Assembly: GCF_025685415.1 (NCBI RefSeq)
Contig: NZ_JAGSYB010000001.1
Span: 3,100,001-3,164,000, forward strand
Length of the DNA: 64,000 nt
Direction: 5' to 3'
DNA from: Terriglobus aquaticus
GTDB lineage: Bacteria; Acidobacteriota; Terriglobia; Terriglobales; Acidobacteriaceae
In this document: positions 9,078-41,041 of the stretch, in pieces
How positions within the stretch are numbered: the first letter of the stretch is position 1
How the letters are laid out: each line of letters opens with the position of its first letter
Translations under genes and position numbers: made by a program
Notes under the pieces: generated by a model
What the model saw: only the letters and a program-made list of their open reading frames with translations
What the model was told of the DNA's origin: nothing
Databases searched by the model: none

Positions 9078-10481
9078 GTGTCCCTGAGCTCCCCTGTCTT
9101 CTTCGTCTTCTTTCTGTGTGTAGTTGCGCTCTATTGGGCGCTTGGCGGTTCCCGCAGGGGCCAGCAAGTGTTGCTGCTGGTGGCCAACCTGTTTTTTCTG
9201 GCGAAGTTTGGGCCGGTGTACCTCGTGTTGCCCGTTGCCGCTCTGGTGGACTTCGCCATTGGGTTACGGCTGGGCACGCCTGGCATGGCGACAGCCCTCC
9301 GCAAAACCTGGGTCAGTCTATCACTGCTGTTGAACGTGGGGTTACTCGTCTTCTTCAAGACGTTGCCCATATTGGATGCCCGGCGCGGCGGCCGGGAGTG
9401 GGGCTGGCTGTTCACGTTGAGCCTAAGTTTCTATTGTTTTCAGTCACTTAGCTACACCCTGGACGTGTACCGTGGCGACGCCAAGCCGGAGCGCAACGCC
9501 ATTTCGTACCTGGCGAGCGCGCTGTTCTTTCCGACGATCCTGGCTGGCCCGATTCCGCGGACGGCAAAACTGCTGCGACAGTGGGGCAAACCGTTCGGTC
9601 TGACGCGGCAGCAGGGGGCGACGGCGCTCTTGCTGATTGCGACTGGGCTGGTGAAGAAGCTGCTGGTAGCGGACTACCTGGCCGACAACCTGGTGAACCG
9701 CGTGTTCGATACGCCGCTGCTGTACTCGGGCGTGGAGAACCTGCTGGCGGTGTATGGCTATGCGCTGCAGTTGTTCTTCGATTTCAGCGGCTATACCGAC
9801 ATTGCGATGGGCGTGGCGATGCTGCTGGGGTTTGCCGTGCCGGAGAATTTCCGCACGCCGTACCTGAGCGTGAACCTGCAGGACTTCTGGAAGCGGTGGC
9901 ACATCAGCTTCTCAAGCTGGCTGACGGACTACCTGTTTGAGTCGCTGCCGAAGAGCCGGGCGTGGCTGAAGTCGACCTTCACGTACGCCATCGTGACCAC
10001 CTTTCTGCTGGGTGGGTTGTGGCACGGGTTTACGTGGAACTTTCTGATCTGGGGAGCGTTGCACGGTGTGGTGCTGAGCCTGGTGTTTGTGTGGTCGCAG
10101 TCGCGATGGAAGAAGGGCCGCAAACGGCGGCTGGGCGAGGGTCCGCTGTGGGCGCGAGTGCTGGGCGCGTTGGTGACGTTCCACTTTGTTTGCTTCACGT
10201 GGGTGTTCTTCCGGGCGCAGGATTTGTCGACGGCGAAGCTGGTGTTCCAGCAGATCGCATCGCACACGCCGGGTACGGAGAACGTGACGCCCGCGCTTTG
10301 GGGCGTGCTTAGTTTTGCCGCGCTGGCGCAGGCGATTCCGCAGGATTGGTTTGATCGCGCGGCGCGGTGGGCGGAGTGGATGCCGTTCTGGGTGCAAGGT
10401 GCGGCGGTGGCGGGCGTTGTGCTGCTGATTCAGCAGTTGGCGGGCAAGGGGTCGGCGGGGTTTGTGTATGGGGCTTTCTAA
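9078..10481 (+). CDS. MBOAT family membrane O-acyltransferase (AlgI/PatA-like)
   Basis: 467 residues, GTG start, about 10-11 membrane helices beginning at once (VFFVFFLCVVALYW). The MBOAT hallmarks are FWKRWHISFSSW with His275 and the second conserved histidine His316 in GGLWHGFTWNFLIWGALHG. FDFSGYTDIAMG is typical of the AlgI/DltB/PatA branch. These proteins pass an acetyl group across the inner membrane for O-acetylation of exopolysaccharide or peptidoglycan. The gene overlaps the next one, an SGNH hydrolase, by 14 bp, which is the usual arrangement for the acetyl channel and its periplasmic transferase. The polymer acetylated is not known: no polysaccharide synthase lies nearby. Confidence 0.92.
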   Translation: MSLSSPVFFVFFLCVVALYWALGGSRRGQQVLLLVANLFFLAKFGPVYLVLPVAALVDFAIGLRLGTPGMATALRKTWVSLSLLLNVGLLVFFKTLPILDARRGGREWGWLFTLSLSFYCFQSLSYTLDVYRGDAKPERNAISYLASALFFPTILAGPIPRTAKLLRQWGKPFGLTRQQGATALLLIATGLVKKLLVADYLADNLVNRVFDTPLLYSGVENLLAVYGYALQLFFDFSGYTDIAMGVAMLLGFAVPENFRTPYLSVNLQDFWKRWHISFSSWLTDYLFESLPKSRAWLKSTFTYAIVTTFLLGGLWHGFTWNFLIWGALHGVVLSLVFVWSQSRWKKGRKRRLGEGPLWARVLGALVTFHFVCFTWVFFRAQDLSTAKLVFQQIASHTPGTENVTPALWGVLSFAALAQAIPQDWFDRAARWAEWMPFWVQGAAVAGVVLLIQQLAGKGSAGFVYGAF

Positions 10482-19924: not shown

Positions 19925-22150
19925 ATGCTGAGATCGATGGTTCGTGCTGCCGCGCTTGCGGTGGCTGCCGTGGTGTGTGTTGGGCCGCTTGTCCTGCGGG
20001 CGCAGAGTGTTGGTTCGCGTGCGGGTGTGGTGGACGAGGTCGATCCCACGATTGGCAACGTGAGCATCCTGCTGGAGCCGACGCGGCCCACGGCGTACCT
20101 GCCGAACAGCATGGTGCGGATGTATCCGGTGCGCAAGGATGCGCTGGACCCGGAGATCCAGTACTTTCCGCTGACGATCCTGTCGCACCGGCAGCCGGAG
20201 CTATTTGCGGTGATGCCGGGCGATGGCAAGCCCGCGGCGTATGACGCGGAGCATGCGACGCCGTACTTCTACACCTCCCGCTTTGATGACGGGATGATCG
20301 GGACGGAGTTTGCGCCGGCGCACCAGGCCGGGTATTTCCGCTTCACGTTCCCGGATGGCAAGGCTACGTTGCTGGTGCGGAACCTGCATCCGGGGTCGGT
20401 GAAGTTGGTTGACGCGAAGGTCGTCACGGGCGAAGAGAAGGTGATGGGCGTGACCGCGTACTTCTACGCGGAGACGAGTGCGCCGGTGAGGGCTGAGAGC
20501 GCTCATGTGGGGGATGGCGATCGTGTGTCGCTGACCGCGAGCGGAGCGAAGTCGCTGGACTTCCGCTACGGAGTTTCGTTCATCAGCGTGGAGCAGGCGA
20601 AGCGAAATCTGCAGCGTGAGATTCCGGCGTTTGAGTTCGAGCGAGTGAAAGATGCGGCGCGCGCGACGTGGAATGCGGCGCTGGGCCAGATCGAGGTGGA
20701 GGGTGGGACGCCGGCGCAGAGGCGCGTGTTCTATACGGCGCTGTACCGCTGCATGGAGCGCATGATCAACATCACCGAGGACGGGCGCTACTACAGCGGT
20801 TTCGATCACCAGGTGCATGAGGATGCGCGGCCGTTCTACGTGGACAACTGGCTGTGGGACACGTACCGCGCGATGGAGCCGCTGCAGACGCTGCTGAATC
20901 CCGACATGCAGGCCGACAAGATTCAGTCGTATGTGCGGATGTATCAGCAGAGCGGCATTATGCCGACGTTCGCGCTGACGAGTGGACCGGCGGCGATTAT
21001 GAACGGCAACCATGCCGCGCCGTGGATCGCCGATGCGTGGAACAAGGGCGTGCGCAACTTCGACCTGCCGACGGCGTACGCGGGGCTGCGCAAGCGTTCG
21101 CTAGAGCAGACGATGCTGCCGTGGACGCTGGGACCGAAGACGGTGCTGGACGACTTCTACGCGGCGCACGGCTACATGCCCGCGCTGCGACCGGGCGAGA
21201 AGGAGACGGTGCCGCAGGTGGCGTCGTTTGAGAAGCGGCAGCCCGTGCCGGTGACGCTGGGGAACAGCACCGACGACTGGTGCATCGCGCAGTTGGCGGG
21301 CGTGCTGCACAAGCCGGAGGACCGTGCGCTGTTTCTGAAGCGCGCGGCGAACTATCGCAACCTGTACCGCGCGGACAAGGGGCTGATGTGGCCCAAGGAT
21401 GACCAGGGCAACTGGATCGAGCCGATGGATCCGAAGTTCGGTGGCGGCCTGGGCGGACGTGAGTACTACGACGAGAACAACGGCTACACCTACGCGTGGG
21501 ACGTGCCGCACGACTACGCGGGGCTGATTGCGTTGATGGGCGGGCGTGCGAAGGCGGAGGCGAATCTGGACCAGCTCTTCCGCGAGCCGCTGGGGCGTTC
21601 GCGGTACGAGTTCCAGGCGAAGTTCCCGGATTCGACGTCGATGATCGGGCAGTTCTCGATGGCCAACGAGCCGAGCCTGAACATTCCGTACCTGTATGAC
21701 CGCATGGGCGCGCCGTGGAAGACGCAGGCGCGGGTCCGGTCGATTCTGACCGCGTTCTTTCCAGACGATCTGCAGGGCATTCCGGGCGATGAGGACGGCG
21801 GCGGTCTGAGCTCGTTTGTGGTGTGGTCGATGATGGGCGTGTACCCGGTGATGCCGGGTGTGCCGGTGTATGACGTGGCGAGCCCGGTGTTCACCAAGGT
21901 GACTGTGCACCTGAAGAGCGGCAAGGATTTTGTGATCGCCGCGCCCGCTAGTTCGGCGGACAACGAGTATGTCGAGAGTGTGCGCTGGAACGGCAAAGCG
22001 ATGGACCACCTCTGGATCACGCACAAGGATGTGACGAGTGGCGGGACGCTGGACTTGACGATGGGCAGTGTGCCGAACCGCCTGCTCGGATCGCAGGAGA
22101 AGGCGGCGCCGCCGGATTCGATGGATGTGGATGTTTCGCAGTTCGAGTAG
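19925..22150 (+). CDS. Secreted GH92-family glycosidase, divergent subgroup
   Basis: 741 residues, ATG start, signal peptide (VRAAALAVAAVVCVGPLVLRAQ). The two-domain GH92 layout is present: N-terminal beta-sandwich from VDEVDPTIGN, then an (alpha/alpha)6 barrel starting near VFYTALYRCM, through WDTYRAMEPL, and ending with the Ca/base loop GDEDGGGLSSFVVWSMMGVYP. NEPS near residue 582 is the region that holds the probable general acid. GH92 enzymes are Ca-dependent alpha-mannosidases acting on N-glycans and mannans. The loop here differs from the canonical GNDDxGxMSSW and the N-terminal PGA..PFGM motif is absent, so linkage or substrate may differ from the next gene. Confidence 0.88.
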   Translation: MLRSMVRAAALAVAAVVCVGPLVLRAQSVGSRAGVVDEVDPTIGNVSILLEPTRPTAYLPNSMVRMYPVRKDALDPEIQYFPLTILSHRQPELFAVMPGDGKPAAYDAEHATPYFYTSRFDDGMIGTEFAPAHQAGYFRFTFPDGKATLLVRNLHPGSVKLVDAKVVTGEEKVMGVTAYFYAETSAPVRAESAHVGDGDRVSLTASGAKSLDFRYGVSFISVEQAKRNLQREIPAFEFERVKDAARATWNAALGQIEVEGGTPAQRRVFYTALYRCMERMINITEDGRYYSGFDHQVHEDARPFYVDNWLWDTYRAMEPLQTLLNPDMQADKIQSYVRMYQQSGIMPTFALTSGPAAIMNGNHAAPWIADAWNKGVRNFDLPTAYAGLRKRSLEQTMLPWTLGPKTVLDDFYAAHGYMPALRPGEKETVPQVASFEKRQPVPVTLGNSTDDWCIAQLAGVLHKPEDRALFLKRAANYRNLYRADKGLMWPKDDQGNWIEPMDPKFGGGLGGREYYDENNGYTYAWDVPHDYAGLIALMGGRAKAEANLDQLFREPLGRSRYEFQAKFPDSTSMIGQFSMANEPSLNIPYLYDRMGAPWKTQARVRSILTAFFPDDLQGIPGDEDGGGLSSFVVWSMMGVYPVMPGVPVYDVASPVFTKVTVHLKSGKDFVIAAPASSADNEYVESVRWNGKAMDHLWITHKDVTSGGTLDLTMGSVPNRLLGSQEKAAPPDSMDVDVSQFE

Positions 22151-22208
22151 TGAGTAGGCGCCAGGGTTTAGGCAAGAGGGATTAGGCAGTAGCGCGTAGG
22201 GAGCTGGG

Positions 22209-24641
22209 ATGTTTCGAATTGGCAGGTTGGTACGTGTCGGGCTTTGCTTCGCGATTGCGGCGAGTGGTGTGCTGGCGCAGGTGGCACAGCAGGATCGCGC
22301 GGGTGAGGTCGATCCGTTCATTGGGACCTCGAACGGTGGCAACACGTTTCCGGGGGCGACGCTGCCGTTTGGCATGGTGCAGTTCAGTCCGGAGGCTTCG
22401 CCGGTGAATGCGAAGCGGATGATTGCGTCGCCGGGCGGGTATGAGTTTGAGTCGAAGCAGTTGCGCGGATTCAGCCTGACGCACGTGGAGGGCTGGGGCT
22501 GCGCGGGCGGGTCGGGCGATGTGCCGATGCTGCCGATCACGGAGGCGGTGACGGACTCGCCTTCGAAGGACTTCCGCTTCCAGTACGCGGTGGGGTTCAG
22601 CCACGCGCAGGAGAAGGCGTCGCCGGGGCTGTACCAGGTGTCGATGGCAAACGGTGTGGACGTTGCGCTGACGAGCGGTCTGCGCTTTGGCATGGCGCAG
22701 CTGCAGTTTCCTACCGGCAAGGCTGCGAACCTGCTGGTACGGACGTCGGACTCGGCGGTCGGGTCGACGGCGTCGACGACGCACATCGATCGCGCGACGA
22801 ACACGATCATGGGTTCGGTGACGAGCGGCAACTTCTGCGGCTACATCGGCACGGAGGATCGGCGATCGTACTACACGCTGTACTTTGCGGCGCACTTCGA
22901 CAAGCAGTTTCGCTCGACCGGTTCGTGGCATGACGGCACGGTGCAGGCGAACAGTGAGACGGCGGAGGGCGGAACGGGCTACGGCGCGAAGGGCTTTCCG
23001 GAGACGGGTCATGGCTCGGGCGTGTGGGTCGGCTTTGAGCCCGGCGCGATGGTGCATGCGCGCATTGGCATCAGCTATGTGAGCCTGGCGAACGCGGAAG
23101 CGAACCTGAAGGCAGAGAGCAGCGAGAGCACGACCTTCGACAGTGTGGCTGCAAAGGCGCGTGCGGAGTGGAACCGCCGGTTGAACCAGATCGAGGTGAC
23201 CGGTGGCACGGCCGATCAGCGCAGGGTGTTTTCGACGGCGCTGTACCACTCGCTGCAAACGCCGACCACATACAACGACAGCAACGGCGAGTACACGGGC
23301 ATGGACGGCAAGGTGCATCGGCTTGCCGCGGGGCAGCGGACGGAGTACGCGAACTTCTCCGGCTGGGACGTGTACCGTTCGCAGGTGCAACTGGTGACGT
23401 GGCTGGACCCGAAGGTGGGCAGCGACATTGCGCAGAGCCTGATGAACCAGTCGGTGGAGGATGGCGGGCGGTGGGATCGGTGGACGCACCTGAGCGGAGC
23501 GACGCACGTGATGAACGGCGATCCGGCGGCACCGTCGGTTGCGGGCATCTGGGCGTTTGGCGGGCGTGACTTCGACGCAAAGGCTGCGCTGGCTTCGCTG
23601 GTGCATGCGGCGGAGGTGCCGACCGCGCAGGACCTGAGCCACGATGGCTGCCCGGTGGAGTGCGTGGGGCAGCGGCCGGGCCTGGACCAGTACCTGAAGC
23701 TGCACTACATCCCGATTGGCGCGCCGGCGTGGGGCGCGAGTGCCGACACGCTGGAGGATGCAACGGCGGACTTCAGCCTGTCCGCGCTGGCCGGGCACCT
23801 GGGCGACAGGGCCTTGCAGCAGCGCTTTGTGGAGCGCGCGCAGTACTGGCGCAACCTGTGGAACCCGAAGGCCGCGCCGGATGGTGGGTACATCATGAAC
23901 CGCAACGCCGACGGCACATGGCCGGCGACGGACGTGGACGAGGACAACGACAGCGACGGCAAGCGCAAGCCGTTTACGCCGTCGACCGGTGCGGGATTTG
24001 TTGAGGGCTCGGCGGCGCAGTACGTGTGGATGGTGCCGTTCAACGTGGCCGGTCTGTTCGACCAGATGGGTGGGCGCGAGACCGCGACGGCGCGGCTGGA
24101 CCGCTTCTTTTACGAGGGTGGCAAGCCGGCGGTGACCAAGGCCGGGCCGACGCATGCGGAGCTGGACAACGAGCCTTCGATCGGCACGCCGTGGCTGTAC
24201 AACTACGCGCGGCAGCCGTGGAAGACGCAGCAGTTGGTGCGGCAGGTGTTGAACACGATCTGGTTGCCGGAGCCGAAGGGTTTGCCGGGGAACGATGACC
24301 TGGGCGAGATGTCGTCGTGGGCGGTTTTTGCGTACCTGGGCGTGTATCCGGCGATCCCGGGGCGGGCGGAGCTGGTGGTTGGCAGTCCCAGCTTCCCGCG
24401 CGCGGTGGTGCATCGGCCTGCGGGCGATGTGGTGATCGAGGCTCCTGCGGCGAGTGCGGCGGACTTCTACGTGCAGGGGCTGAAGGTGAACGGCAAGGCG
24501 GCGAGTAAGACGTGGCTGCCGGAGAACTTTGCGCTGCAAGGTGGCACGCTGCGGTTCGACCTGGGCGCTGCGCCGAATGAGAACTGGGGCAGCCATGCGG
24601 GGGATGAGCCGCCTTCGTTTGAGGCGGGACGTTCGCGGTAA
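22209..24641 (+). CDS. Secreted GH92 alpha-mannosidase
   Basis: 810 residues, ATG start, signal peptide (RLVRVGLCFAIAASGVLAQ). It is a canonical GH92: DPFIGTSNGGNTFPGATLPFGM at the start of the sandwich domain (in two motifs, FIGT and PGA.LPFGM), FSLTHVEGWGC, the barrel entry VFSTALYHSL, WDVYRSQVQL, DNEPSIGTPWLYN with the probable acid Glu, and GNDDLGEMSSWAVFAYLGVYP for the Ca/base loop. It should remove alpha-1,2/1,3/1,4/1,6-linked mannose exo-fashion in the periplasm or outside. It follows the first GH92 gene by 58 bp and is likely in one transcript with it; the two barrels are only distantly similar. Confidence 0.93.
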   Translation: MFRIGRLVRVGLCFAIAASGVLAQVAQQDRAGEVDPFIGTSNGGNTFPGATLPFGMVQFSPEASPVNAKRMIASPGGYEFESKQLRGFSLTHVEGWGCAGGSGDVPMLPITEAVTDSPSKDFRFQYAVGFSHAQEKASPGLYQVSMANGVDVALTSGLRFGMAQLQFPTGKAANLLVRTSDSAVGSTASTTHIDRATNTIMGSVTSGNFCGYIGTEDRRSYYTLYFAAHFDKQFRSTGSWHDGTVQANSETAEGGTGYGAKGFPETGHGSGVWVGFEPGAMVHARIGISYVSLANAEANLKAESSESTTFDSVAAKARAEWNRRLNQIEVTGGTADQRRVFSTALYHSLQTPTTYNDSNGEYTGMDGKVHRLAAGQRTEYANFSGWDVYRSQVQLVTWLDPKVGSDIAQSLMNQSVEDGGRWDRWTHLSGATHVMNGDPAAPSVAGIWAFGGRDFDAKAALASLVHAAEVPTAQDLSHDGCPVECVGQRPGLDQYLKLHYIPIGAPAWGASADTLEDATADFSLSALAGHLGDRALQQRFVERAQYWRNLWNPKAAPDGGYIMNRNADGTWPATDVDEDNDSDGKRKPFTPSTGAGFVEGSAAQYVWMVPFNVAGLFDQMGGRETATARLDRFFYEGGKPAVTKAGPTHAELDNEPSIGTPWLYNYARQPWKTQQLVRQVLNTIWLPEPKGLPGNDDLGEMSSWAVFAYLGVYPAIPGRAELVVGSPSFPRAVVHRPAGDVVIEAPAASAADFYVQGLKVNGKAASKTWLPENFALQGGTLRFDLGAAPNENWGSHAGDEPPSFEAGRSR

Positions 24642-24713
24642 GCGCAGATGCATCCCCGGTTGTGAAATGCACAGGCATGTAGCATCGCAACAACGCCACA
24701 CCTTGGGAGTGCG

Positions 24714-25829
24714 ATGAAGAAGCTGGTTGCGGTAGCGCTGTGCCTTGCTGGAGTGTTTGCGGCTGCAGTTCCCTGCTCTGCGCAGGCGAAGAAGCCGTGG
24801 CTGGTCGAGGTGCATGGCGGCGCTGGCGATATGGCTCGCGCGAACACCTCGCCGGCGCAGGAGAAGGCGATTCGCGCCGTGATGGCCGAGGCTGCGAACG
24901 CGGCGGGCAAGGTGCTGGACGGTGGCGGATCGTCGGTCGACGCGGTGGAGACGGGCATCCGCATTCTGGAAGACTCGGGGCTGTTCGATTCGGGCAAGGG
25001 CGCGATTCTGAACGCGGCCGGCTTCAGCGAGCTGGACGCCGCGATCATGGATGGCAAGAACCTGAAGGCCGGATCGGTGGCGGCGGTGCGCACGTCGCCG
25101 CACCCGATCACGCTGGCTCGCGCGGTGATGGATAAGACGCCGCACGTGATGATCGTGGGAAGCGGCGCCGACGAGTTTCTGGCCAGCATTCATGGTGAGC
25201 AGGTACAGCCGCGCTACTTCTGGGACGAGGGCAAGTGGCAGGCCCTGGTGGACCAGTTGAAGCACGAGGGCAAGCCTGTGCCGGCGCGTCCGGCGTTCGC
25301 TCCGGCTGCGCCCGCGGGCGGGGGGGGCAAGGCATTGGTGCATGTGACTGCGCCCGGCTTCGATGAGGCGGTGATGGTGCCGCCGGTGTGGAGCGGGAGT
25401 GGCCGGCACTACGGCACGGTGGGCGTGGTGGCGATGGATCGCAGCGGCAATCTGGCGGCGGGAACCTCGACCGGCGGATCGCAGGGCAAGCTGCCGGGGC
25501 GCGTGGGCGACTCGCCGATCCTCGGCGCGGGTACGTATGCGGCGAACGAGTCCTGCGCGGTGTCGGCCACGGGTGTGGGCGAGTACTTTATGCGCCTGAC
25601 CATCGCCCGCGATGTGTGTGCGCTGGTGCAGTACAAGGGCTTGAAGTTGAAGGCGGCGGCGGACGAGGTGATCCACACGCGGCTGAAGCAGTTGGACGGC
25701 GTGGGCGGGCTGATTGCGATAGCGCCGGATGGGCAGGCGGCATGGAGTTTCAACACGCCGGGGATGAATCGCGCGCGGTTGCGCGAGGGCGGCAAGGTTG
25801 AGGTTGTGCTGTATGACGATCAGCCTTGA
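24714..25829 (+). CDS. Secreted isoaspartyl peptidase/L-asparaginase (Ntn-hydrolase)
   Basis: 371 residues, ATG start, signal peptide (MKKLVAVALCLAGVFAAAVPCSAQ). The plant-type asparaginase fold is clear: WLVEVHGGAGD at the N-terminus, GSSVDAVETGIRILEDS, FDSGKGAILNAAGFSELDAAIMDG, then the autoprocessing site HYGTVGVVAMD in which Thr235 becomes the nucleophile, and TSTGGSQGKLPGRVGDSPILGAGTYA as two binding motifs. It removes isoaspartyl or Asn side-chain linkages. A glycine/proline-rich linker sits just before the cut. Placed after two GH92 enzymes, it may act on peptides of deglycosylated N-glycoproteins, since some members are glycosylasparaginases; this is an inference. Confidence 0.92.
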   Translation: MKKLVAVALCLAGVFAAAVPCSAQAKKPWLVEVHGGAGDMARANTSPAQEKAIRAVMAEAANAAGKVLDGGGSSVDAVETGIRILEDSGLFDSGKGAILNAAGFSELDAAIMDGKNLKAGSVAAVRTSPHPITLARAVMDKTPHVMIVGSGADEFLASIHGEQVQPRYFWDEGKWQALVDQLKHEGKPVPARPAFAPAAPAGGGGKALVHVTAPGFDEAVMVPPVWSGSGRHYGTVGVVAMDRSGNLAAGTSTGGSQGKLPGRVGDSPILGAGTYAANESCAVSATGVGEYFMRLTIARDVCALVQYKGLKLKAAADEVIHTRLKQLDGVGGLIAIAPDGQAAWSFNTPGMNRARLREGGKVEVVLYDDQP

Positions 25830-25830
25830 T

Positions 25831-25847
25831 GAGTCAGCAAGTCAGCA
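25831..25847 (+). repeat. Intergenic GAGTCAGC/AAGTCAGC pair
   Basis: Two AGTCAGC units in the gap just after the asparaginase stop codon, matching the units within rnpA at 17371-17406. Confidence 0.5.
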
Positions 25848-25850
25848 GGA

Positions 25851-26537
25851 ATGAAACACATGCGTCCTACGTTTGAACTGTGTGCGGAGACGCTGGAGGC
25901 GTGCGAGGCGGCGCGGCTGGGTGGAGCGGATCGCGTGGAGTTGTGCGTGAACCTGCATCTGGACGGGACGACTCCGCCGGATGCGATGATTGCGGCTGCG
26001 GTGGAGCGGTCGGGTTTGCCGGTGCATGTGCTGGTGCGGCCGGAGGCGGATGACTTTGTGTATCGGCCTGCGGTGTTTGCGCGCATTCGCGAAGGGATTG
26101 TGCGCGCGAAGGAACTGGGCGCGGCGGGCGTGGTGGTCGGGGTCCTGAATGAGGATCGCACCGTGGCGGTGCACGCGATGCGCGAGCTGGTGGAGTTGGC
26201 GTCGCCGTTACCGGTGGAGTTTCATCGAGCGTTCGACCGGACTCCGGATCTGTTCGCTGCGCTGGAAGATGTGATCGCAACAGGATGTGCGCGCGTGCTG
26301 ACGAGCGGCGGAGCGCCTGACGTGATTGCGGGTGCGGCGGTGCTGGATGCGCTGGTGCGGCAGGCGGCGGGGCGTATCGCGATTGCAGCGGGCGGAGGCT
26401 TGCGCGTGAGCAATGTGGGCGCGCTGCAAAAGGCGTGGACGGGGCAGCACTATCACGGGTCACTGGGCGGAGCGGCGGACGGTGTGCAGGTCCTTGCGAA
26501 GCGGGTGCGTGATCTGCGCGCCGAACTGGCGCATTGA
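25851..26537 (+). CDS. cutC: CutC-family protein
   Basis: 228 residues, ATG start, 21 bp after the asparaginase. It is a complete CutC TIM barrel: FELCAETLEACEAARLGGADRVELC, the DGTTPP segment, HVLVRPEADDFVY, FHRAFDRTPD, and VLTSGGAPD with an IAAGGGL strand near the end. The family was linked to copper tolerance in E. coli, but that role is disputed and many bacterial members probably have a metabolic function. It has no signal peptide and is cytoplasmic, unlike the three upstream genes. It closes the block inserted between yidC and jag. Confidence 0.93.
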   Translation: MKHMRPTFELCAETLEACEAARLGGADRVELCVNLHLDGTTPPDAMIAAAVERSGLPVHVLVRPEADDFVYRPAVFARIREGIVRAKELGAAGVVVGVLNEDRTVAVHAMRELVELASPLPVEFHRAFDRTPDLFAALEDVIATGCARVLTSGGAPDVIAGAAVLDALVRQAAGRIAIAAGGGLRVSNVGALQKAWTGQHYHGSLGGAADGVQVLAKRVRDLRAELAH

Positions 26538-31246: not shown

Positions 31247-32221
31247 TTAGCGGTTAGCGTAGCGCTGCTGATGCCACTGCCAGGCGGATTCGAGGATGCG
31301 GTCGATCTCGGGCGTCTTTGGGACCCAGCCGAGGATGCGGCGGGCTTCTTCGGCGCTGGCGACGAGGCGGGCGGGGTCGCCGGCGCGGCGGGGCTTGATC
31401 TCTGCCGGGATCGGCTTGCCGGTGACCTTGCGGGCGGCCTCGATCACTTCCTTGACGCTGAAGCCAGTGCCGTTGCCGAGATTGCAGATGATGCGGCTCT
31501 CGCGCTTGAGGGCGTCGAGGGCGAGGATGTGGGCGTCGGCCAGGTCGGCGACGTGGATGTAGTCGCGGATGCAGGAGCCGTCGGGGGTGTCGTAGTCGTC
31601 GCCGTAGATGAGGATCTTGTCGCGGCGGCCCAGGGCGACGTCAAGGATGAGCGGGATGATGTGGGTCTCGGGCTCGTGGGCCTCGCCACGGTGCGGCAGC
31701 GCGCCGGCCACGTTGAAGTAGCGCAGGGAGGCGTAGCGCAGGCCGTGCAGTTGGTGGAACCACTTCAGCATGTACTCGACCAGCAGCTTGGATTCGCCGT
31801 AGGGATTGGTCGGGGCGAGGCGCGCGGTTTCGGGGATGGGCACGGCTTCGGGTTCGCCGTAGACGGCGGCGGTGCTGCTGAAGACGAGGTTTTGCGTGCC
31901 GGTCGCGTGCATGGCCTCAAGCAGGCTGAGCGTGGAGGCGGTGTTGTTGCGGAAGTAGACCTCGGGCACGCGCATGCTGTCGCCGGCTTCGATCAGCGCG
32001 GCGAAATGGAGGACGCCGTCCGGCTTCATCTCGTTCAGGAGCGACTCGAGGCGAGGGCGGTCGGCGATGTCGGCCTCGACGAAGTTCGCGCCCTTGGGAA
32101 CTTCGTTCGCCTTGGCGTGGACCAGGCTGTCGACGATGGTGACGGTGTGGCCCTGTTCCATGAGGAGGGCGGCTACAGTTCCACCGATGTAGCCGGCACC
32201 GCCGGTGACGAGGACGTTCAT
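31247..32221 (-). CDS. galE: UDP-glucose 4-epimerase
   Basis: 324 residues, ATG start. An extended SDR: NAD-binding TGGAGYIGG, the FAALIEAGDS segment, SSTAAVYG with the catalytic Ser/Thr, and YGESK for Tyr-Lys. It interconverts UDP-galactose and UDP-glucose. It starts 6 bp downstream of the galT stop, so the two are co-transcribed in the order galK-galT-galE. Length and motifs are normal. Confidence 0.95.
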   Translation of the reverse strand: MNVLVTGGAGYIGGTVAALLMEQGHTVTIVDSLVHAKANEVPKGANFVEADIADRPRLESLLNEMKPDGVLHFAALIEAGDSMRVPEVYFRNNTASTLSLLEAMHATGTQNLVFSSTAAVYGEPEAVPIPETARLAPTNPYGESKLLVEYMLKWFHQLHGLRYASLRYFNVAGALPHRGEAHEPETHIIPLILDVALGRRDKILIYGDDYDTPDGSCIRDYIHVADLADAHILALDALKRESRIICNLGNGTGFSVKEVIEAARKVTGKPIPAEIKPRRAGDPARLVASAEEARRILGWVPKTPEIDRILESAWQWHQQRYANR

Positions 32222-32227
32222 GCGTTC

Positions 32228-33292
32228 TTAGCCTTTCGTTGCGGTGCCGAAGGCGGAGCGCAGGGTTTCGGCGGCGCTTTCGGGCGTGATGTCGCGTTGT
32301 GGGGAGCCGAGCAGTTCGAAGCCGACCATAAACTTGCGGACGGTGGCAGAGCGCAGCAGCGGCGGGTAGAAGTGGGCGTGGAGCTGCCAGCCGGGGTGGG
32401 AGGCGGCGATCTCGGGCTCCGGCACCTGGCAGGGTGCGCCGTGGAAGCCCATGCTGTAGGGGAATGGCGTGTCGAAGACGCGGTTGTAGCCGGCGCAGAC
32501 GACGTTGAGCATGTGGGCGAGGCCGTCGCGGGCGGCAGGGTCGAGCGAGCGGATGTTGCTGGCAGGGTTGCGCGGGATCACGAGGAGTTCGAACGGCCAG
32601 ACGGCCCAGAACGGGACAAGGGCGACCCAGGTGTCGTTCTCGGCGACGATGCGTTCCTTCGCGGTAAGTTCGGCGGCGAGGACATCGAGCAGGAGTGCGC
32701 GGCCGTTTTGCGCGAAGTAGTCGGCCTGCGCGGCGGACTCGACCAGCGGGTCGTTGGGAACGTGTTCGGTGGCCCAGATCTGGCCGTGCGGGTGCGGGTT
32801 GCTGGCGCCCATCATGGCGCCGCGGTTTTCGAAGATCTGCACGTAGCCGATGTCCGGGCGCGCGGCGAGGTCGGCTTCCTGCTCCGCCCACACGTCGACT
32901 ACGCGGCGGATGGACTCGACGGGCATGGTGGCCAGGGTGAGGTCGTGGCGCGGGTCGAAGCAGAGGACGCGGCAGATGCCTTTTTCGCTTTGCGTGCGAA
33001 GCAGGCCGGTTGCATCGAGCGACTCGTCAAAGGGCTCGCCGTCTTCGCGCAGGGCGGCGAAGTCGTTGTCGAAAACGAAGGTGTTCTTGTACTGCGGGGT
33101 GATGTGGCCGCCAGCGCGGGTGTTGCCAGGGCACAGGTAGCAGGTGGGGTCGTACTGCAGAGCGGCGGGCGCGGCGGGCGTCTCGGTCTGGCCCTGCCAG
33201 GGGCGCTGCGTGCGGTGCGGCGAAACGAGGACCCACTCGCGGCGCAGCGGGTTCCAGCGGCGGTGGGAGTTGGATTGCATGGCCTGGTTCAC
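32228..33292 (-). CDS. galT: Galactose-1-phosphate uridylyltransferase
   Basis: 354 residues from GTG at 33292, with AGGAG 7 nt upstream; ATG at 33280 is an alternative. The zinc-site CYLCPGN and the active-site SNPHPHGQIW (the His of HPH takes the UMP) identify GalT. NFVFDN-like and HAHFYPP motifs close the HIT fold. It transfers UMP from UDP-glucose to Gal-1-P in the Leloir pathway. It lies between galK and galE, separated from galK by a 97-bp gap rich in palindromes. Confidence 0.95.
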   Translation of the reverse strand: MNQAMQSNSHRRWNPLRREWVLVSPHRTQRPWQGQTETPAAPAALQYDPTCYLCPGNTRAGGHITPQYKNTFVFDNDFAALREDGEPFDESLDATGLLRTQSEKGICRVLCFDPRHDLTLATMPVESIRRVVDVWAEQEADLAARPDIGYVQIFENRGAMMGASNPHPHGQIWATEHVPNDPLVESAAQADYFAQNGRALLLDVLAAELTAKERIVAENDTWVALVPFWAVWPFELLVIPRNPASNIRSLDPAARDGLAHMLNVVCAGYNRVFDTPFPYSMGFHGAPCQVPEPEIAASHPGWQLHAHFYPPLLRSATVRKFMVGFELLGSPQRDITPESAAETLRSAFGTATKG

Positions 33293-33325
33293 GGTGCCGC
33301 TCCTGGTCTGGGGTTCGTCACCTCG

Positions 33326-33395
33326 GGGCCATAAGGCCCAGAGGGGTGGAGGTTCGATTGGTCTACCTCGGCGGCTAAAGCCGCGGTCTTCAGGC
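33326..33395. repeat. REP-like palindromes between galK and galT, copies 2-3
   Basis: Two hairpins lie in the gap: GGGCC-ATAA-GGCCC (33326-33339) and GCGGC-TAAA-GCCGC (33371-33384), the latter followed by CTTCAGGCG, which holds the galK stop codon. The flanks GCTAAAGCC and CTTCAGGCG are shared with the element at 35953-35990. They may attenuate or protect the galKTE message. Confidence 0.55.
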
Positions 33396-34547
33396 GGCGA
33401 TCTGCTTGCCTTCGGCCGAGGCGCGTTCCACGGCACCGGCGACGGCCTCGCAGACAAAGGTCTGCGCGGCGATGTTGTAGCGATGCTGGTAGGCGTCGCG
33501 GACTGCGGCGATGAAGGTGTCGGCGTCGCCCGCGCGGACGAGGTTGACGGTGCAGCCGCCGAATCCGCCGCCAGTGAGGCGCGCGCCGAAGCAGCCAGGC
33601 TGCTGGACGGCGGTGTCGACGAGGAAGTCGACTTCTTCGACGCTGCACTCGAAGTCGTCGCGCTCGCTGGCGTGGGCTGTGGTCATCAGCTTGCCGAGTG
33701 CGGTGGCGTTGCCTGCCTTCATAGCGTCAGCGGCCTGCCGAACACGGGCATTTTCGCTGATGATGTGGCGACAGCGGCGGAAGCTCTCGGGAGACATCTC
33801 CTCCTGCACCTGCGCGAGCTGGTCAAGGGTGGAGCCGCCCAGGTCGGGCACGCCGAAGCGGTCGCGCAGGATCTGCTGGCCGGCTTCGAGTTCGCGGCGG
33901 CGCTGCGCGTAGTCGCTGCCGGCGGTCACAGTGTGGCGCACCATGCTGTTGACGACCACGACAACGCAGCCCGCCAAGTCGCCGCTGTTCATGGGCAGGT
34001 GCTGGTAGCTAAGGTCGCGCGTGTTGAGCAGCAGGGCGTGGCCGGCCGTGGCTGCGGTGATGACGAACTGGTCCATGATGCCGCAGGGCGAGCCGACGTA
34101 GCGGTTCTCCGCGCGCTGGCAGAGCAGCGCGATCTCTGGCAGGGGCAGTTGCGCGCCGCTGTGCTCCAACAGGACAGCGGCGGTGGCCACTTCAATGGAG
34201 GCGGAGGAGCTGAGCCCAGCGCCGAGCGGGACGTTGCCGTCGACCGCGATGTGGAACGGCGGGGGCGTGATGCCGAGCTCCTGCAACTCGCGAAGGACGC
34301 CGACGGCGTAGTCGCTCCAGTTGCCGACGGCGGGGCCGCGATCGTCGGGCGACATGGTGCGGTTCTCGTTGAACTGCGAGGAATGGAAGGTGTACTGGCC
34401 GTCGCTCGCGGGCATGATGCGCACGTTCGTCTGGAATGGGATGGCCATGGGCAGCACCAGGCCGCCGGTGTAGTCGGTGTGCTCGCCGATGAGATTGACG
34501 CGGCCGGGCGCAGATGCGGTGAGGACGGAGCTGGTCTCGGGTGTCAC
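33390..34547 (-). CDS. galK: Galactokinase
   Basis: 385 residues from GTG at 34547, the start that gives the usual GalK length; an open frame continues to 34976 but has no homology. GHMP-kinase motifs: ASAPGRVNLIGEHTDYTGG (sugar site), PLGAGLSSSAS (ATP loop) and LTGGGFGGC near the end. It phosphorylates galactose at C1. It is first in the - strand galK-galT-galE operon and is divergent from gmhA; a promoter should lie in the 163-bp gap. Confidence 0.95.
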   Translation of the reverse strand: MTPETSSVLTASAPGRVNLIGEHTDYTGGLVLPMAIPFQTNVRIMPASDGQYTFHSSQFNENRTMSPDDRGPAVGNWSDYAVGVLRELQELGITPPPFHIAVDGNVPLGAGLSSSASIEVATAAVLLEHSGAQLPLPEIALLCQRAENRYVGSPCGIMDQFVITAATAGHALLLNTRDLSYQHLPMNSGDLAGCVVVVVNSMVRHTVTAGSDYAQRRRELEAGQQILRDRFGVPDLGGSTLDQLAQVQEEMSPESFRRCRHIISENARVRQAADAMKAGNATALGKLMTTAHASERDDFECSVEEVDFLVDTAVQQPGCFGARLTGGGFGGCTVNLVRAGDADTFIAAVRDAYQHRYNIAAQTFVCEAVAGAVERASAEGKQIAA

Positions 34548-34710
34548 GCCTAATAGCTTCTCAGAGATTGGTGAGCGCTGGCCGGAAAGATGAGTGGTCT
34601 GGACAGACGTGGACTTCGCTGACCGGGACCAGAGAAAGCTGTGCAGCGGGCTGAGAAGCACTGTGCCGCGGGCCTGGCGGTATCCTGAGTGCGAGAGGCT
34701 GCGCGCAGGC

Positions 34711-35304
34711 ATGATGAACGATCTGGTACGTCGGCAACTGGAGATGAGCCTGGCTACGCTGGAGCGCACGCGCAACGACGAGGCGCTGGTGGACGCTGTG
34801 GCCCGGGCGGCCGAAGCGACCGCACAGGCCATGCTGCGGGGCGGCAAGCTGATGATCGCCGGCAACGGCGGGTCGGCGGCGGATGCGCAGCACCTGTCCG
34901 CGGAGTTTGTGGCCCGGCTTACGGTGGACCGGCCGGCGCTGCGGTGCGTGGCGCTCACGACGGACTCTTCGGCCATGACCGCGATTGGGAACGACTATGC
35001 GTTTGAGCAGTTGTTCTCGCGGCAGGTGGAGGCGATCGGCGCGCGGGGCGATGTGTTTATGGGCATCTCCACCTCGGGCAACTCGCCGAACATCCTGCGG
35101 GCGTTGCAGCAGTCGCGGGAGATGGGCATCACCACGATCGGTTACTCCGGCAACGGTGGCGGCAAGATGGCCGCGCTGTGCGACTACAACGTGATCGTGC
35201 CGTCGGAGACGACGATGCACATCCAGGAGTCGCACCTGGCGCTGGAACACATCTTCTGCATGATCGTGGAGCGGTGCTACTTTGGGCCGGAGTTCGGGCG
35301 GTAA
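34711..35304 (+). CDS. gmhA: Sedoheptulose-7-phosphate isomerase (GmhA-like SIS protein)
   Basis: 197 residues from ATG at 34711 (a second ATG follows directly); an upstream GTG at 34594 is rejected because it would run into the galK promoter. One SIS domain: GGKLMIAGNGGSAADAQHLS, VALTTDSSAMTAIGNDY, MGISTSGNSPN, and IQESHLALEHIFC, the GmhA metal/active-site histidine helix. It converts sedoheptulose-7-P into D-glycero-D-manno-heptose-7-P for LPS heptose. The next gene starts 36 bp later. Confidence 0.9.
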   Translation: MMNDLVRRQLEMSLATLERTRNDEALVDAVARAAEATAQAMLRGGKLMIAGNGGSAADAQHLSAEFVARLTVDRPALRCVALTTDSSAMTAIGNDYAFEQLFSRQVEAIGARGDVFMGISTSGNSPNILRALQQSREMGITTIGYSGNGGGKMAALCDYNVIVPSETTMHIQESHLALEHIFCMIVERCYFGPEFGR

Positions 35305-37607: not shown

Positions 37608-39815
37608 ATGCTCACGCGTGCGCTCTGTTTGGTCTGCCTCTTGCTGCTTCTGGTTGTTCCGGCTCGTGCGCAGGGGACGCTCGCGGCGGCGGAGGGTGTA
37701 GTGCGGCGTGAGCTGCCGGGTTTGTCGCAGCAGATACACCTCCAGTTGCAGCCTGGAGATTACGCGGGCGAGTCGGATGGCTTTCGCATCACGGGCGGTG
37801 CGGGCGACATTCACGTGAGCGCGGCAACGGTGCCGACGCTGCTGTTCGGCGTGAACTGGTACCTAAAGTACACGGCGCACCTGAACATCTCGACGAATGG
37901 CAGCCGCGTGAGTGGCGTGACCACGCTGCCGGCGGTGACGCAGCCGATCGTGAAGCCGGCGCTGTATCCGTTTCGCTATGCGCTGAACGAGAACACCGAT
38001 GGCTACACCACGCCGTACTGGGACTTCGACCGGTGGCAGCACGAGATCGATGTGCTGGCGCTGTCGGGCTTCAACGCGATCCTGATCCAGCGTGGTAACG
38101 ATCTGGCGGTGTACGAGGCGTTTCGCGCGATGGGCTACGGCGATGCCGACATTCGCAACTGGATCACGCAGCCCGCGCACCAGAACTGGCAGTGGATGGG
38201 CAACATGTGCTGCTTCCTTGAGCCGATCTCGCTGGACCTGATGCAGAAGCGCGCGGAGAGCGCGCGCAGGATTATGGACATGCTGCGGTCGCTGGGTATG
38301 ACGCCGGTGCTGCCGGGCTTCTGGGGCGTGGTGCCGGCGGACTTCGCAAAGCATGTTCCGGGCGCGCGTGTGGTGACGCAGACGAACCCGTGGAACGGCT
38401 TCCAGCGGCCGGGGTGGCTCGATCCGCGCGACCCGAGTTTTGCGAAGGTGGCGGCGGCGTTCTACGCGAGCCAGCAGAAGCTGTTTGGGCCGACAACGCT
38501 GTATGACATGGAGACGTTTCAGGAGGGCGGGCAGTCGGGCGATGTGCCGGTGAGCGAGGCGGCGCGCGCGATCCAGGTGGCGCTGAACAAGGCCCACCCG
38601 GATGCGCTGTGGTTCATGATGGCGTGGCAAGACAACCCCAAGCCGGCGCTGATCGATGGCGTGGACCGCAGCAAGATCCTGATCGCGGATATTGAGCAGG
38701 GGCGCATACCGCGCGACAACCGCGAGGCGGACTTCAAGGGAGCGCGCTGGCTGTTTGGCGGGCTGTGGGAGTTTGGCGGCCGGACGACCATGGGCGCTCC
38801 GCTGTACGACTATGCCAAGCGAATGCCGCAGGCGGAGCACGCGGCGGGGAGCCACCTGTCGGGCACGGCGCTCTTTACTGAGGGGCTGGATACCAACCCG
38901 TTTGCGTATGACTTGTACACAGAGATGGCGTGGCGGCCGGAGCCGGTGGATCTGCAGCAGTGGACGGCGGAGTACGCGCGGCGGCGTTACGGTGCCGCGG
39001 ACGCGCATGCCGAGCGGGCGTGGCAGATCATCCAGCGCACCGTGTACGGCTACCGCGCCGACGGCAACATGGAGCATGGCGAGCGCGATGCCGCGCACGA
39101 GTCGATCTTCAACGCGGAGCCTTCGCTGACCGCGACGCGCACCGGGCACTGGGCGCCGGACGTGCTGCGCTACAACGCTGACGACCTGAAGCCGGCGCTG
39201 GTCGAGCTGCTGCAGGTCGCTCCGGAGCTGCGGGGGAGCCAGGCGTATCAGTACGACTTGGTCGACCTTGCGAGGCAGGTGCTGGCGAACGATGCGCGGC
39301 GGCAACTGCCGTTGATCCGCAGTGCGTATGAGAGCAAGGACCGAGACGCGTTCAAGGCACGCACGGCAGAGTGGCTGCGAAGCATGGACACGATGGATGC
39401 TCTACTGGCGACGAATCAGTACTTCCTGCTGGGCCGGTGGTTGAGCTACCTGCCGGCGTGGGCTGCGCCGGGTGCGGGCCGCGCCGCGATCGAGCTGGAT
39501 GCGCGATCGATCCTGACGACGTGGGGCGACCGCGAGGCGAGCAAAGATCTGCACGAGTACGGCAACAAGGACTGGGCCGGGTTGGTGCGCACGTATTACG
39601 AGCCGCGCTGGCGGCTGTATTTCGACAGCCTGGACCACGGATTGGAGACGAACTCGCCGCCCGTGCCCATCGACTGGTACGCTTTTGGCGAGCGATGGAA
39701 CCACGGCACCGAAAGCTTTTCTGCGCAGCCCACGGGCGACGCTTACGGCATGGCGAGCAAGGTCGCCGAATCTTTGCACCTGTCACCCAACGTGGAAGCC
39801 AAGGGAGCTAACTGA
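37608..39815 (+). CDS. Secreted alpha-N-acetylglucosaminidase (GH89, NAGLU-like)
   Basis: 735 residues from ATG at 37608; signal peptide (ALCLVCLLLLLVVPARAQ). All three NAGLU parts are seen: an N-terminal domain to about residue 120, the (beta/alpha)8 domain starting PFRYALNENTDGYTTPYWDF, and a C-terminal helical domain. QNWQWMGNMCC and LPGFWGVVP are diagnostic. By motif, the two catalytic glutamates are probably Glu306 in YDMETFQEGG and Glu425 in FTEGLDTN, which match the human NAGLU pair. It removes terminal alpha-GlcNAc from glycans. Its stop codon overlaps by 1 bp the start of a HGSNAT-like gene, so the two are translationally coupled. Confidence 0.93.
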   Translation: MLTRALCLVCLLLLLVVPARAQGTLAAAEGVVRRELPGLSQQIHLQLQPGDYAGESDGFRITGGAGDIHVSAATVPTLLFGVNWYLKYTAHLNISTNGSRVSGVTTLPAVTQPIVKPALYPFRYALNENTDGYTTPYWDFDRWQHEIDVLALSGFNAILIQRGNDLAVYEAFRAMGYGDADIRNWITQPAHQNWQWMGNMCCFLEPISLDLMQKRAESARRIMDMLRSLGMTPVLPGFWGVVPADFAKHVPGARVVTQTNPWNGFQRPGWLDPRDPSFAKVAAAFYASQQKLFGPTTLYDMETFQEGGQSGDVPVSEAARAIQVALNKAHPDALWFMMAWQDNPKPALIDGVDRSKILIADIEQGRIPRDNREADFKGARWLFGGLWEFGGRTTMGAPLYDYAKRMPQAEHAAGSHLSGTALFTEGLDTNPFAYDLYTEMAWRPEPVDLQQWTAEYARRRYGAADAHAERAWQIIQRTVYGYRADGNMEHGERDAAHESIFNAEPSLTATRTGHWAPDVLRYNADDLKPALVELLQVAPELRGSQAYQYDLVDLARQVLANDARRQLPLIRSAYESKDRDAFKARTAEWLRSMDTMDALLATNQYFLLGRWLSYLPAWAAPGAGRAAIELDARSILTTWGDREASKDLHEYGNKDWAGLVRTYYEPRWRLYFDSLDHGLETNSPPVPIDWYAFGERWNHGTESFSAQPTGDAYGMASKVAESLHLSPNVEAKGAN

Positions 39816-41041
39816 TGCAGCAATCTGCGGCTGATCCGCTGTTTTCCTCTGTAACCGATGCCGACGTAGTTGCCCGGCCAACGGCGGTGAAGCCGGCGCG
39901 CCTCCTGTCCATCGACGTTCTGCGCGGGTTGACCATCGCGTTCATGATCGTGGTGAACGACCAGATGGGCCCCGCACCGTTTCACCAGTTGAGCCACGCC
40001 AAGTGGAACGGTCTTACAGCCACGGACCTGGTGTTTCCGACGTTTCTGTTCCTGGTGGGGCTGACCACGGTGCTGTCCACGGCATCGCGGCTGGCGCGCA
40101 ACGCGAGCCGGCGAGAGATGTTCGTTCACGTGGTGCGGCGAGCGCTGCTGCTGATCCTGCTTGGCTTTGTGGTGAACAACTTCCCGTTCACACACCTGGC
40201 CAACGCGCGGTATTACGGCGTGTTGCCGCGCATCGGCCTGTGCTACTTCGTGGCGGCGTCGGTGCTGCTGGTGTCGCGGTCGTGGAAGGACAAGCTTGCC
40301 ATCGCGGTGGTCTGCCTGCTGGGCTACTGGGTGCTGATGCGCTTTGTGCCGGTGCCGGGATATGGTGTGCCGACGCACGATGTGCCGATCAACGATTTTG
40401 ACGGCAACCTGACGGCGTGGCTCGATCGCCAGATCTTCAGCGCGCGGCACCTGTATGAGAAGACGCGCGATCCGGAAGGATTGCTGTCGACCATTCCGGC
40501 GATTGCGACGACGATGTTTGGCATGCTGGCGGGCATGTGGGTTCGCTCGACCGCGACGACGGGGCGCAAGGCCGCGGGTCTGCTGGGTGCGGGATCGCTG
40601 CTGATCGTTTTGGGAGCGGTGTGGAACGTGTGGTTCCCGGTGAACAAGAAGCTGTGGACGAGTTCGTACACGCTCGTGGCGGCGGGCATCAGCACGGTGC
40701 TGCTGGCCCTGGCGATCCAGGTGATCGATCGGTGGAGGCTTGGCCGCAAGGGGAATCAGGGCGCTGAGCCGTCCGGCGATCACGCGTCTGCGTACTGGCC
40801 GGTGCTGGTCCTGGGAACGAACGCGATCCTGGCGTACCTGATCTCAGAGCTGGGCGCTACGCTGCTGCACGTGTTCCATACCGGAAGCGGACGGCCGGTC
40901 GGGGCAGTGATCGGTATGGCGTTCTTCCGCTGGTTTAGCTCGCCGGCGATTGCTTCGTTGATGTATTCGCTGGCGTTTCTGCTGGTGTGCTGGTTGTTGA
41001 CGTACCCGTTCTATCGGAAGCGGATCTTCCTGCGCATCTGA
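39815..41041 (+). CDS. HGSNAT-like transmembrane acetyltransferase
   Basis: 408 residues, ATG start overlapping the GH89 stop by 1 bp. About ten membrane helices. The N-terminal LLSIDVLRGLTIAFMIVVND and SHAKWNGLTATDLVFPTFLF match heparan-alpha-glucosaminide N-acetyltransferase; His61 in SHAKWNG corresponds to the acetyl-carrying histidine (His269) of the human enzyme. In the lysosome HGSNAT moves acetyl from cytosolic acetyl-CoA across the membrane onto terminal alpha-glucosamine, making the NAGLU substrate. The coupling with GH89 suggests the same two-step process here, with periplasmic glucosamine ends as acceptor. Most bacterial homologues are listed only as DUF5009 or acyltransferase family proteins. 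Confidence 0.85.
   Translation: MQQSAADPLFSSVTDADVVARPTAVKPARLLSIDVLRGLTIAFMIVVNDQMGPAPFHQLSHAKWNGLTATDLVFPTFLFLVGLTTVLSTASRLARNASRREMFVHVVRRALLLILLGFVVNNFPFTHLANARYYGVLPRIGLCYFVAASVLLVSRSWKDKLAIAVVCLLGYWVLMRFVPVPGYGVPTHDVPINDFDGNLTAWLDRQIFSARHLYEKTRDPEGLLSTIPAIATTMFGMLAGMWVRSTATTGRKAAGLLGAGSLLIVLGAVWNVWFPVNKKLWTSSYTLVAAGISTVLLALAIQVIDRWRLGRKGNQGAEPSGDHASAYWPVLVLGTNAILAYLISELGATLLHVFHTGSGRPVGAVIGMAFFRWFSSPAIASLMYSLAFLLVCWLLTYPFYRKRIFLRI

Follow-up and report, generated by a model that had tools for sequence, protein, structure and literature searches.

A 64,000-nt stretch of the Terriglobus aquaticus genome (assembly GCF_025685415.1, contig NZ_JAGSYB010000001.1, positions 3,100,001–3,164,000 of the forward strand), hereafter the window, carries two overlapping genes on its + strand: one for a GH89 alpha-N-acetylglucosaminidase-like protein of 735 aa (37608–39815) and one for an HGSNAT-like membrane protein of 408 aa (39815–41041). 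The GH89 gene begins at ATG 37608, its frame being already open from a TTG at 37485, and ends with the stop codon at 39813–39815, while the next ATG is 39815–39817. The two genes share one base within a TGATG (39813–39817), an arrangement which an earlier note on this DNA, made from the letters alone, had described and which we find together with both open reading frames (ORFs). The overlap suggests that translation of the two genes is coupled.

All three Pfam domains of the GH89 family (NAGLU_N, NAGLU and NAGLU_C) score over their cut-offs in the upstream protein, and its PDB matches include C. perfringens CpGH89 (E = 1.8e-100) and human NAGLU (5.1e-76). Glu306 (codon 38523–38525) and Glu425 (38880–38882) align with the residues mutated in the CpGH89 structure 4a4a, E483Q and E601Q, and both are invariant across 50 aligned GH89 sequences, in agreement with the catalytic pair named in the earlier note. 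An AlphaFold2 model (predicted local distance difference test, pLDDT, 89.1; predicted template modelling score, pTM, 0.91) superimposes with a Z of 45.6 on CpGH89 (2vcb) and 40.0 on human NAGLU (4xwh). In the PDB alignment, Trp515 (39150–39152) corresponds to CpGH89 Trp685, which was located by counting along the alignment from E483, and it sits in a CpGH89-type loop that is absent from human NAGLU. Positions 37608–37670 encode a probable Sec signal peptide (MLTRALCLVCLLLLLVVPARA, followed by Q; read by eye from the translation), so the enzyme, which is predicted to hydrolyse alpha-linked N-acetylglucosamine (GlcNAc), would be periplasmic.

The downstream protein scores 38.8 bits on PF07786 (HGSNAT_cat; cut-off 22). 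Its AlphaFold2 model (pLDDT 91.2, pTM 0.91) has ten membrane helices with the ninth broken, which excerpts of PMC12423673 give as a hallmark of the TmAT superfamily, and superimposes on human HGSNAT with a Z of 41.7 (2.3 Å over 344 residues). Superposition on both human enzymes, the check that the earlier note had suggested, thus gave close matches. GWT1, the inositol acyltransferase of glycosylphosphatidylinositol (GPI) synthesis, was the second structural match (Z 19.7); this is expected within the superfamily and we give it no functional weight.

His61 (codon 39995–39997), in the motif SHAKWNG of the first, probably periplasmic, loop, aligns with human HGSNAT His297, the catalytic histidine according to excerpts of PMC9007349, and is invariant across 64 family sequences, which bears out its earlier assignment to the active site. 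The network around it is also kept: N48, H61, D71, R132, D219, E221 and E345 correspond to human N286, H297, D307, R372, D497, E499 and E615, where the human numbers were obtained by counting along alignments and a cryo-EM paper (PMC11357348) numbers the residues 28 lower (H269, N258 etc.). These are the residues that excerpts of that paper list around the lumen-facing end of the site for acetyl-CoA, and N48 and D219 are conserved in at least 90% of the aligned family sequences. The position of human H614, a second luminal histidine, is occupied by Ser344. The N-terminal luminal domain and first transmembrane helix of metazoan HGSNAT are absent, the alignment beginning at human residue 247–262. 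With helices counted from the model, the His61 loop and the D219/E221 loop lie on one side of the membrane, and the majority of the positively charged loops lie on the opposite side. This arrangement would place the active site at the periplasmic face, where the protein may transfer acetyl groups onto an alpha-glucosaminide. A distant relative, TfMurT, is called a putative transporter in excerpts of PMC9007349; a pure transporter role was considered for the window protein and dropped, as its acetyl-CoA site residues are retained. Frames of 250–265 aa from eight Acidobacteriota genomes (L016–L023; group codes f42 and f63) score 176–192 bits on HGSNAT_cat against the window protein's 39, and represent a quite different subfamily.

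Recurrence of the gene pair

In profile searches of 247 Acidobacteriota genomes, GH89 was rare (12 matches in 10 genomes) and HGSNAT-type genes were common (148 genomes). Each of the 11 strong GH89 matches is followed immediately, in the same orientation, by an HGSNAT-like ORF; the twelfth, a weak match in one genome (G041), has none. The T. aquaticus genome itself has one GH89 match and three HGSNAT-type matches, two of them over the cut-off. A scan of genome contigs gave 61 GH89 loci, 36 acidobacterial and 25 from Pseudomonadota. Pairing was judged in the 33 acidobacterial loci with at least 1.3 kb downstream: a partner lies within 0.5 kb in 26, including L081 with frameshifted ORFs, and about 4 kb further on in two. 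Across all loci, L046, L047, L080 and L090 end too near GH89 for a call. At least four of these 26 belong to genomes already in the 247-genome survey.

Pairs also occur outside the phylum. Plasmid records with GH89 numbered 22, of which 20 were read over 6–7 kb on each side; nine of the 20 loci are paired, all nine alphaproteobacterial. Among 398 Pseudomonadota genomes GH89 was found in six, one of them Dyella. The other five comprise three direct pairs, one genome whose partner lies 4 kb off on the opposite strand, and one without a partner; the GH89s of the four with a partner group with the alphaproteobacterial GH89s in the tree. The partner has an in-frame start at −4 in 10 of the 12 pairs formed by the nine plasmid and three genome loci, and in most other pairs the first in-frame HGSNAT-like start either has this same offset or lies no more than a few tens of bases off. 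The Bacteroidota sampled were plasmid records. The conservation in relatives on which the earlier note had made its pathway idea depend holds in Acidobacteriota, where 11 of 12 GH89 matches adjoin an HGSNAT-like gene, and on alphaproteobacterial plasmids. It is not universal: none of the 24 assessable Pseudomonadota loci of the contig scan is paired.

For trees, rows were kept at over 60 bits and 85% of the profile for HGSNAT (74 rows) and over 100 bits and 75% for GH89 (93 rows). Of 39 HGSNAT regions fetched, 22 passed this filter, and the 17 more divergent ones (L140, L146–L148, L150, L152, L153, L158, L169–L177) stand outside both the tree and the control set used below. Eight duplicate or near-identical loci were left out, giving 66 of the 74 HGSNAT rows and 85 of the 93 GH89 rows in quick trees whose only support values are from the Shimodaira–Hasegawa-like approximate likelihood ratio test and for which the program warns of long branches. 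In the GH89 tree, the alphaproteobacterial proteins group with one clade from Acidobacteriota, here type A, which shares about 27% identity with the window protein; the clade of the window protein itself, type B, groups with unpaired proteins of Dyella and Acetobacter. In the HGSNAT tree, the partners of type A and type B are neighbours and the alphaproteobacterial partners stand apart. At one locus (L085, 9899–13287) the partner of a type-A GH89 comes from a third HGSNAT clade, which suggests an exchange of partners. The starred branches force at least eight changes of paired state in the HGSNAT tree and at least nine in the GH89 tree, gains and losses counted together. Since the trees disagree at depth, the combination was made or remade more than once, and its repeated assembly or retention speaks for the two proteins working together. 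The pairing is far beyond chance, and on the survey counts and trees we reject both mere chance and clonal descent as its explanation.

Two further observations concern neighbours. A family of about 460 aa that has no Pfam match (e.g. L024, 2949–4334) is present in nine of 11 type-A GH89-HGSNAT loci and in the HGSNAT-only loci L139, L149, L155 and L156. On Haladaptatus plasmids, from halophilic archaea, unpaired GH89 genes (L108, L125) lie beside PhoX and PhoD-type phosphatase genes, L125 additionally with 5'-nucleotidase and endonuclease/phosphatase-family genes.

Proposed function and the order of steps

On balance we favour, at slightly better than even confidence, the reading that the pair is a periplasmic two-step module which removes terminal alpha-linked glucosamine (GlcN) by acetylating and then cleaving it. 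The HGSNAT-like protein, in the inner membrane, would take an acetyl group from cytoplasmic acetyl-CoA, via His61 or assisted by it, and N-acetylate alpha-GlcN that is exposed to the periplasm; the resulting alpha-GlcNAc would then be hydrolysed by the secreted GH89, and the released GlcNAc would go into the GlcNAc pathway. If the substrate is linked to inositol, alpha-mannosidase, phosphoinositide phospholipase C and myo-inositol oxygenase could act before and after the pair. The earlier note had proposed such an inner-membrane pathway, which is plausible. The sequences themselves establish the families, catalytic residues, predicted folds, overlap and recurrence; topology, activities and the order of steps are deduced from them, and we take acetylation before cleavage as the likely order. 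We know of no GH89 enzyme that cuts unacetylated glucosamine caps. Two nagA matches over the cut-off in the T. aquaticus genome count in favour of this reading.

Several counts weigh against it. In 11 of the 20 plasmid loci, from Streptomyces, Embleya, Haladaptatus, Phocaeicola, Persicobacter and Bacteroides, GH89 has no partner within 6–7 kb on each side even at a loose threshold (in Streptomyces L131, three chosen neighbour ORFs had no Pfam match). The 25 Pseudomonadota loci of the contig scan, of which 24 were assessable and none paired, come from Dyella, Rhodanobacter, Acetobacter, Novacetimonas and unclassified genomes. When 11 unpaired Pseudomonadota genomes were searched whole, four had a family gene somewhere and seven had no family match, so GH89 can work without an HGSNAT-like partner. 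Five of the 33 acidobacterial loci have no nearby partner either; four of these five genomes were searched and each has a family gene elsewhere; in one of them (G259) the best match is the partner of the genome's second GH89. Lastly, the partner lies near nag genes in Novosphingobium L120 and in L127 and L128, as expected of NagX, a bacterial member of the HGSNAT family.

This last point bears on an explanation with the opposite order of steps, in which the GH89 independently releases an amino sugar and the HGSNAT-like protein, in the role of NagX, acetylates free periplasmic GlcN for uptake by a GlcNAc transporter. The adjacency would then arise because both genes feed GlcNAc catabolism. Fitness data from five bacteria, with Caulobacter a possible exception, indicate that NagX is important for the use of glucosamine and not of GlcNAc (excerpts of PMC9007349). 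NagA- and NagB-II-like genes accompany the pair in L120, L127 and L128, and a NagK-like kinase does so in L127, L128 and Asticcacaulis loci (among scanned representatives, NagA was over the cut-off, NagB-II and NagK below). The NagX model NF046061 is also the only NCBIfam match of the window protein at E 0.001. Its score of 185.5 bits, however, is far below the curated cut-off of 480 for this equivalog, and simple NagX membership was rejected. Nine of 10 further family members score 136–198 bits on the same model, and the tenth, a paralogue in the T. aquaticus genome (L035), has no match. Profile scans of the window neighbours identified no nag gene beside the pair, and GH89 enzymes are described in excerpts of PMC8225759 as releasing GlcNAc, which would need no acetylation. 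We regard cleavage before acetylation, with the NagX role, as a rival account that is rather improbable.

Inositol-related neighbours and candidate substrates

The glucosamine of GPI is alpha-linked to inositol, and the headgroups of glycosyl inositol phosphoceramides (GIPCs) are similar, the plant form holding glucosamine, alpha-linked to glucuronic acid (GlcA), on inositol (GlcN-alpha-GlcA-Ins). Inositol-linked GlcN, in GPI anchors or inositol phosphosphingolipid headgroups, is the substrate class we favour for the acetylate-then-cleave module, at rather less than even confidence, because pairs of some relatives lie near genes for myo-inositol oxygenase, a transporter found in inositol loci, alpha-mannosidase or PI-PLC, a phosphoinositide phospholipase C. 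In Edaphobacter RYN_7 (L052) the gene order is transporter, LacI, myo-inositol oxygenase, outer-membrane receptor, GH92, GH89 and HGSNAT, the transporter, LacI and receptor having been identified by cluster membership. The GH92 alpha-mannosidase gene lies 22 bp from GH89 there and 1.8 kb from it in L076. Myo-inositol oxygenase occurs within 10 kb of GH89 in five of 40 acidobacterial loci (L052, L040, L031, L037 and L076; the 40 exclude duplicates, L081 with its frameshifts and L090 at a contig end), and in L040 and L031 it stands with the transporter beside the pair. That transporter adjoins the pair in L027–L031 and L040. Locus L053 holds GH89, a receptor, a phosphoesterase and a PI-PLC-C1 gene 5 kb from GH89, and in L128, from Pseudomonadota, PI-PLC-C1, NagA-like, NagB-II-like and NagK-like genes cluster with HGSNAT, GH89 and receptors.

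The same transporter family recurs with myo-inositol oxygenase and PI-PLC-C1 in genomes G217 and G049 and in the T. aquaticus genome, whose locus L180 (G000:C1:3256000–3275500) has genes for PI-PLC-C1, myo-inositol oxygenase, a TMEM144/Sugar_transport-like transporter and an outer-membrane receptor. The G217 and G049 loci resemble L180 and have in addition a LacI-type gene and a KduI/IolB-like gene.

Five myo-inositol oxygenase genes near GH89 compare with 0.16 expected in the span (Poisson 7e-7, or 6e-4 when three closely related loci are counted once); the background was set at one such gene in every genome, a generous figure given that 30 of the 247 genomes have one. The inference rests nonetheless on few loci, and other comparisons speak against it. 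In the GH89 tree, three of the five are closely related. Against a control of 17 HGSNAT-only loci, which for the most part extend no more than about 5 kb to either side, the difference is not significant for myo-inositol oxygenase within 10 kb (5/40 vs. 0/17, Fisher 0.16) or within 5 kb (3/40 vs. 0/17, Fisher 0.34), nor for the transporter (0.07 at 10 kb and 0.11 at 5 kb), and the short reach of the controls biases the 10-kb comparison toward the inositol reading. Myo-inositol oxygenase is present in 6 of 9 same-family genomes with GH89 and in 11 of 17 without. For PI-PLC-C1 the counts alone are 8 of 9 and 9 of 17 in the same 26 genomes, and the association of GH89 with either gene at the genome level is weak or none. 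Locus L180 lies about 100 kb beyond the window, and no homologue of myo-inositol oxygenase or PI-PLC is found among window frames of at least 200 aa.

Two GH92 alpha-mannosidase genes (Pfam Glyco_hydro_92; 19925–22150 and 22209–24641, + strand) lie in the window 13 kb upstream of the pair, outside its operon, and are possibly related to it in function. GPI cores combine non-N-acetylated GlcN, three mannoses and an inositol phospholipid (excerpts of PMC6726743), which is just what this enzyme set would need to handle. A tentative extension, to which we give still lower confidence than to the substrate class, is that soil bacteria have a dedicated pathway for dismantling GPI anchors or inositol phosphosphingolipid headgroups; the lysosomal HGSNAT and NAGLU would in that case be one use of an older bacterial solution, acetylation followed by cleavage. 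In such a pathway a phospholipase C would free the glycan and GH92 mannosidases would trim its mannose; the HGSNAT-like protein would acetylate the otherwise resistant alpha-GlcN-inositol and GH89 would split the product, after which myo-inositol oxygenase would take up the inositol and the nag pathway the GlcNAc. Plant GIPC as the specific substrate, suggested by GH115, galacturonic acid (GalA)-related and GH43 neighbours, was kept only within the inositol class. An alcohol dehydrogenase gene of the window was considered as a link to inositol genes through the scyllo-inosose dehydrogenase model (223.6 bits against a cut-off of 450), and is unused as evidence because it is below the cut-off and has no homologue in other GH89 loci.

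Acetylation and cleavage might instead act on plant or microbial polysaccharides or glycolipids that hold no inositol, with caps such as GlcN-alpha-galactose (Gal) or GlcN-alpha-GlcA. The CpGH89-like Trp loop, which most type-B sequences have, is linked to recognition of GlcNAc-alpha-1,4-Gal (excerpts of PMC8225759). Type-A pairs have beta-galactosidase or GH2 genes in their vicinity; where the locus is on a plasmid, there are GH43, GH115 or arabinofuranosidase genes. This explanation leaves the myo-inositol oxygenase and PI-PLC-C1 neighbours unaccounted for, however, and GH89s with and without the loop both have HGSNAT partners; we consider it rather improbable. Heparan-type catabolism as in animals, in which the pair would remove GlcN(Ac)-alpha-1,4-GlcA ends of heparan or heparosan, is very improbable: the enzyme families are those of lysosomal heparan degradation, the bacterial GH89 Bt3590 cleaves heparosan oligosaccharides and the T. 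aquaticus genome has one heparinase II/III-type domain over the cut-off, but heparan sulfate is rejected as an unlikely substrate because that genome has no sulfatase over the Pfam cut-off (one sub-threshold match, 19.4 bits) and because the loop with Trp515 is thought to hinder heparan-type substrates (Bt3590 and loop: excerpts of PMC8225759), and no heparinase or sulfatase was among the selection of neighbour genes scanned.

Elsewhere in the window, the GH92 genes stand in a row with an Asparaginase_2 gene and a CutC-family gene (19925–26537). Asparaginase_2 is the family of glycosylasparaginases, and the row looks like an N-glycan degrading cluster. On the − strand, galK-, galT- and galE-like genes lie in a row (31247–34976). 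At 9078–12132 an MBOAT acyltransferase adjoins a GDSL-type protein, resembling surface-polysaccharide O-acetylation pairs.

Comparison with known systems

If the acetylate-then-cleave reading is true, bacterial HGSNAT-family proteins gain a defined partner and a class of acceptor, alpha-glucosaminides. The pair would then illustrate how bacteria overcome glucosamine caps that carry no acetyl group, and would provide small bacterial models for the two enzymes that are missing in Sanfilippo B and C disease. If the inositol reading also holds, the way in which bacteria degrade GPI anchors and GIPC headgroups from debris of fungi and plants could be tested directly. The bacterial HGSNAT family, the NagX role and acetylation before cleavage in heparan sulfate and peptidoglycan degradation are all known; a literature search of open-licence full texts found, among the papers listed, no publication on a GH89-HGSNAT (DUF5009/NagX/NAGLU) pair. 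The earlier note knew of no characterised bacterial system of this kind, which stands for the pair in the texts searched and not for its membrane component, as the HGSNAT relative NagX has been published (PMC9007349).

A similar published gene neighbourhood is in B. thetaiotaomicron, where excerpts of PMC10434189 include, in a table of iron-responsive genes, a GH89 (BT0438), a DUF5009 gene (BT0446) and a calcineurin-like phosphoesterase at short distance from one another (BT0438–BT0454); by that gene table, the GH89 and DUF5009 genes are not adjacent. CpGH89/AgnB-type enzymes, which act on GlcNAc-alpha-1,4-Gal of mucin, include the closest solved GH89 structure and have the Trp loop in common with the window protein. 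They differ in having a host mucin as substrate, and excerpts of PMC8225759 mention no acetyltransferase partner.

In peptidoglycan salvage, where we take the enzymes to be GlmA and NagZ of Clostridium acetobutylicum, the enzyme families and the compartment differ from those of the GH89-HGSNAT pair. The order of steps is similar: excerpts of PMC4680927 state that GlcN ending peptidoglycan fragments is acetylated before cleavage by a beta-N-acetylglucosaminidase, the substrate in that case being beta-linked. NagX, proposed in excerpts of PMC9007349 to acetylate free periplasmic glucosamine from cytoplasmic acetyl-CoA, resembles the window protein in family, length, conserved histidine and the proposed sides of donor and acceptor. 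The window protein differs from it in its score (185.5 against 480) and in having a GH89 as partner, not a nag or chitin operon.

Another counterpart is the human lysosomal system, whose two enzymes first acetylate a terminal glucosamine of heparan sulfate and afterwards remove it. Human HGSNAT has a metazoan luminal domain and a first helix that are missing from the bacterial protein, which also has Ser344 for His614; the bacterial genes overlap on the chromosome, the GH89 has the CpGH89-type loop, and the genome has no sulfatase over the cut-off. Human HGSNAT and NAGLU nevertheless belong to the same two families as the T. aquaticus proteins, with matching folds (Z 41.7 and 40.0) and conserved catalytic residues.

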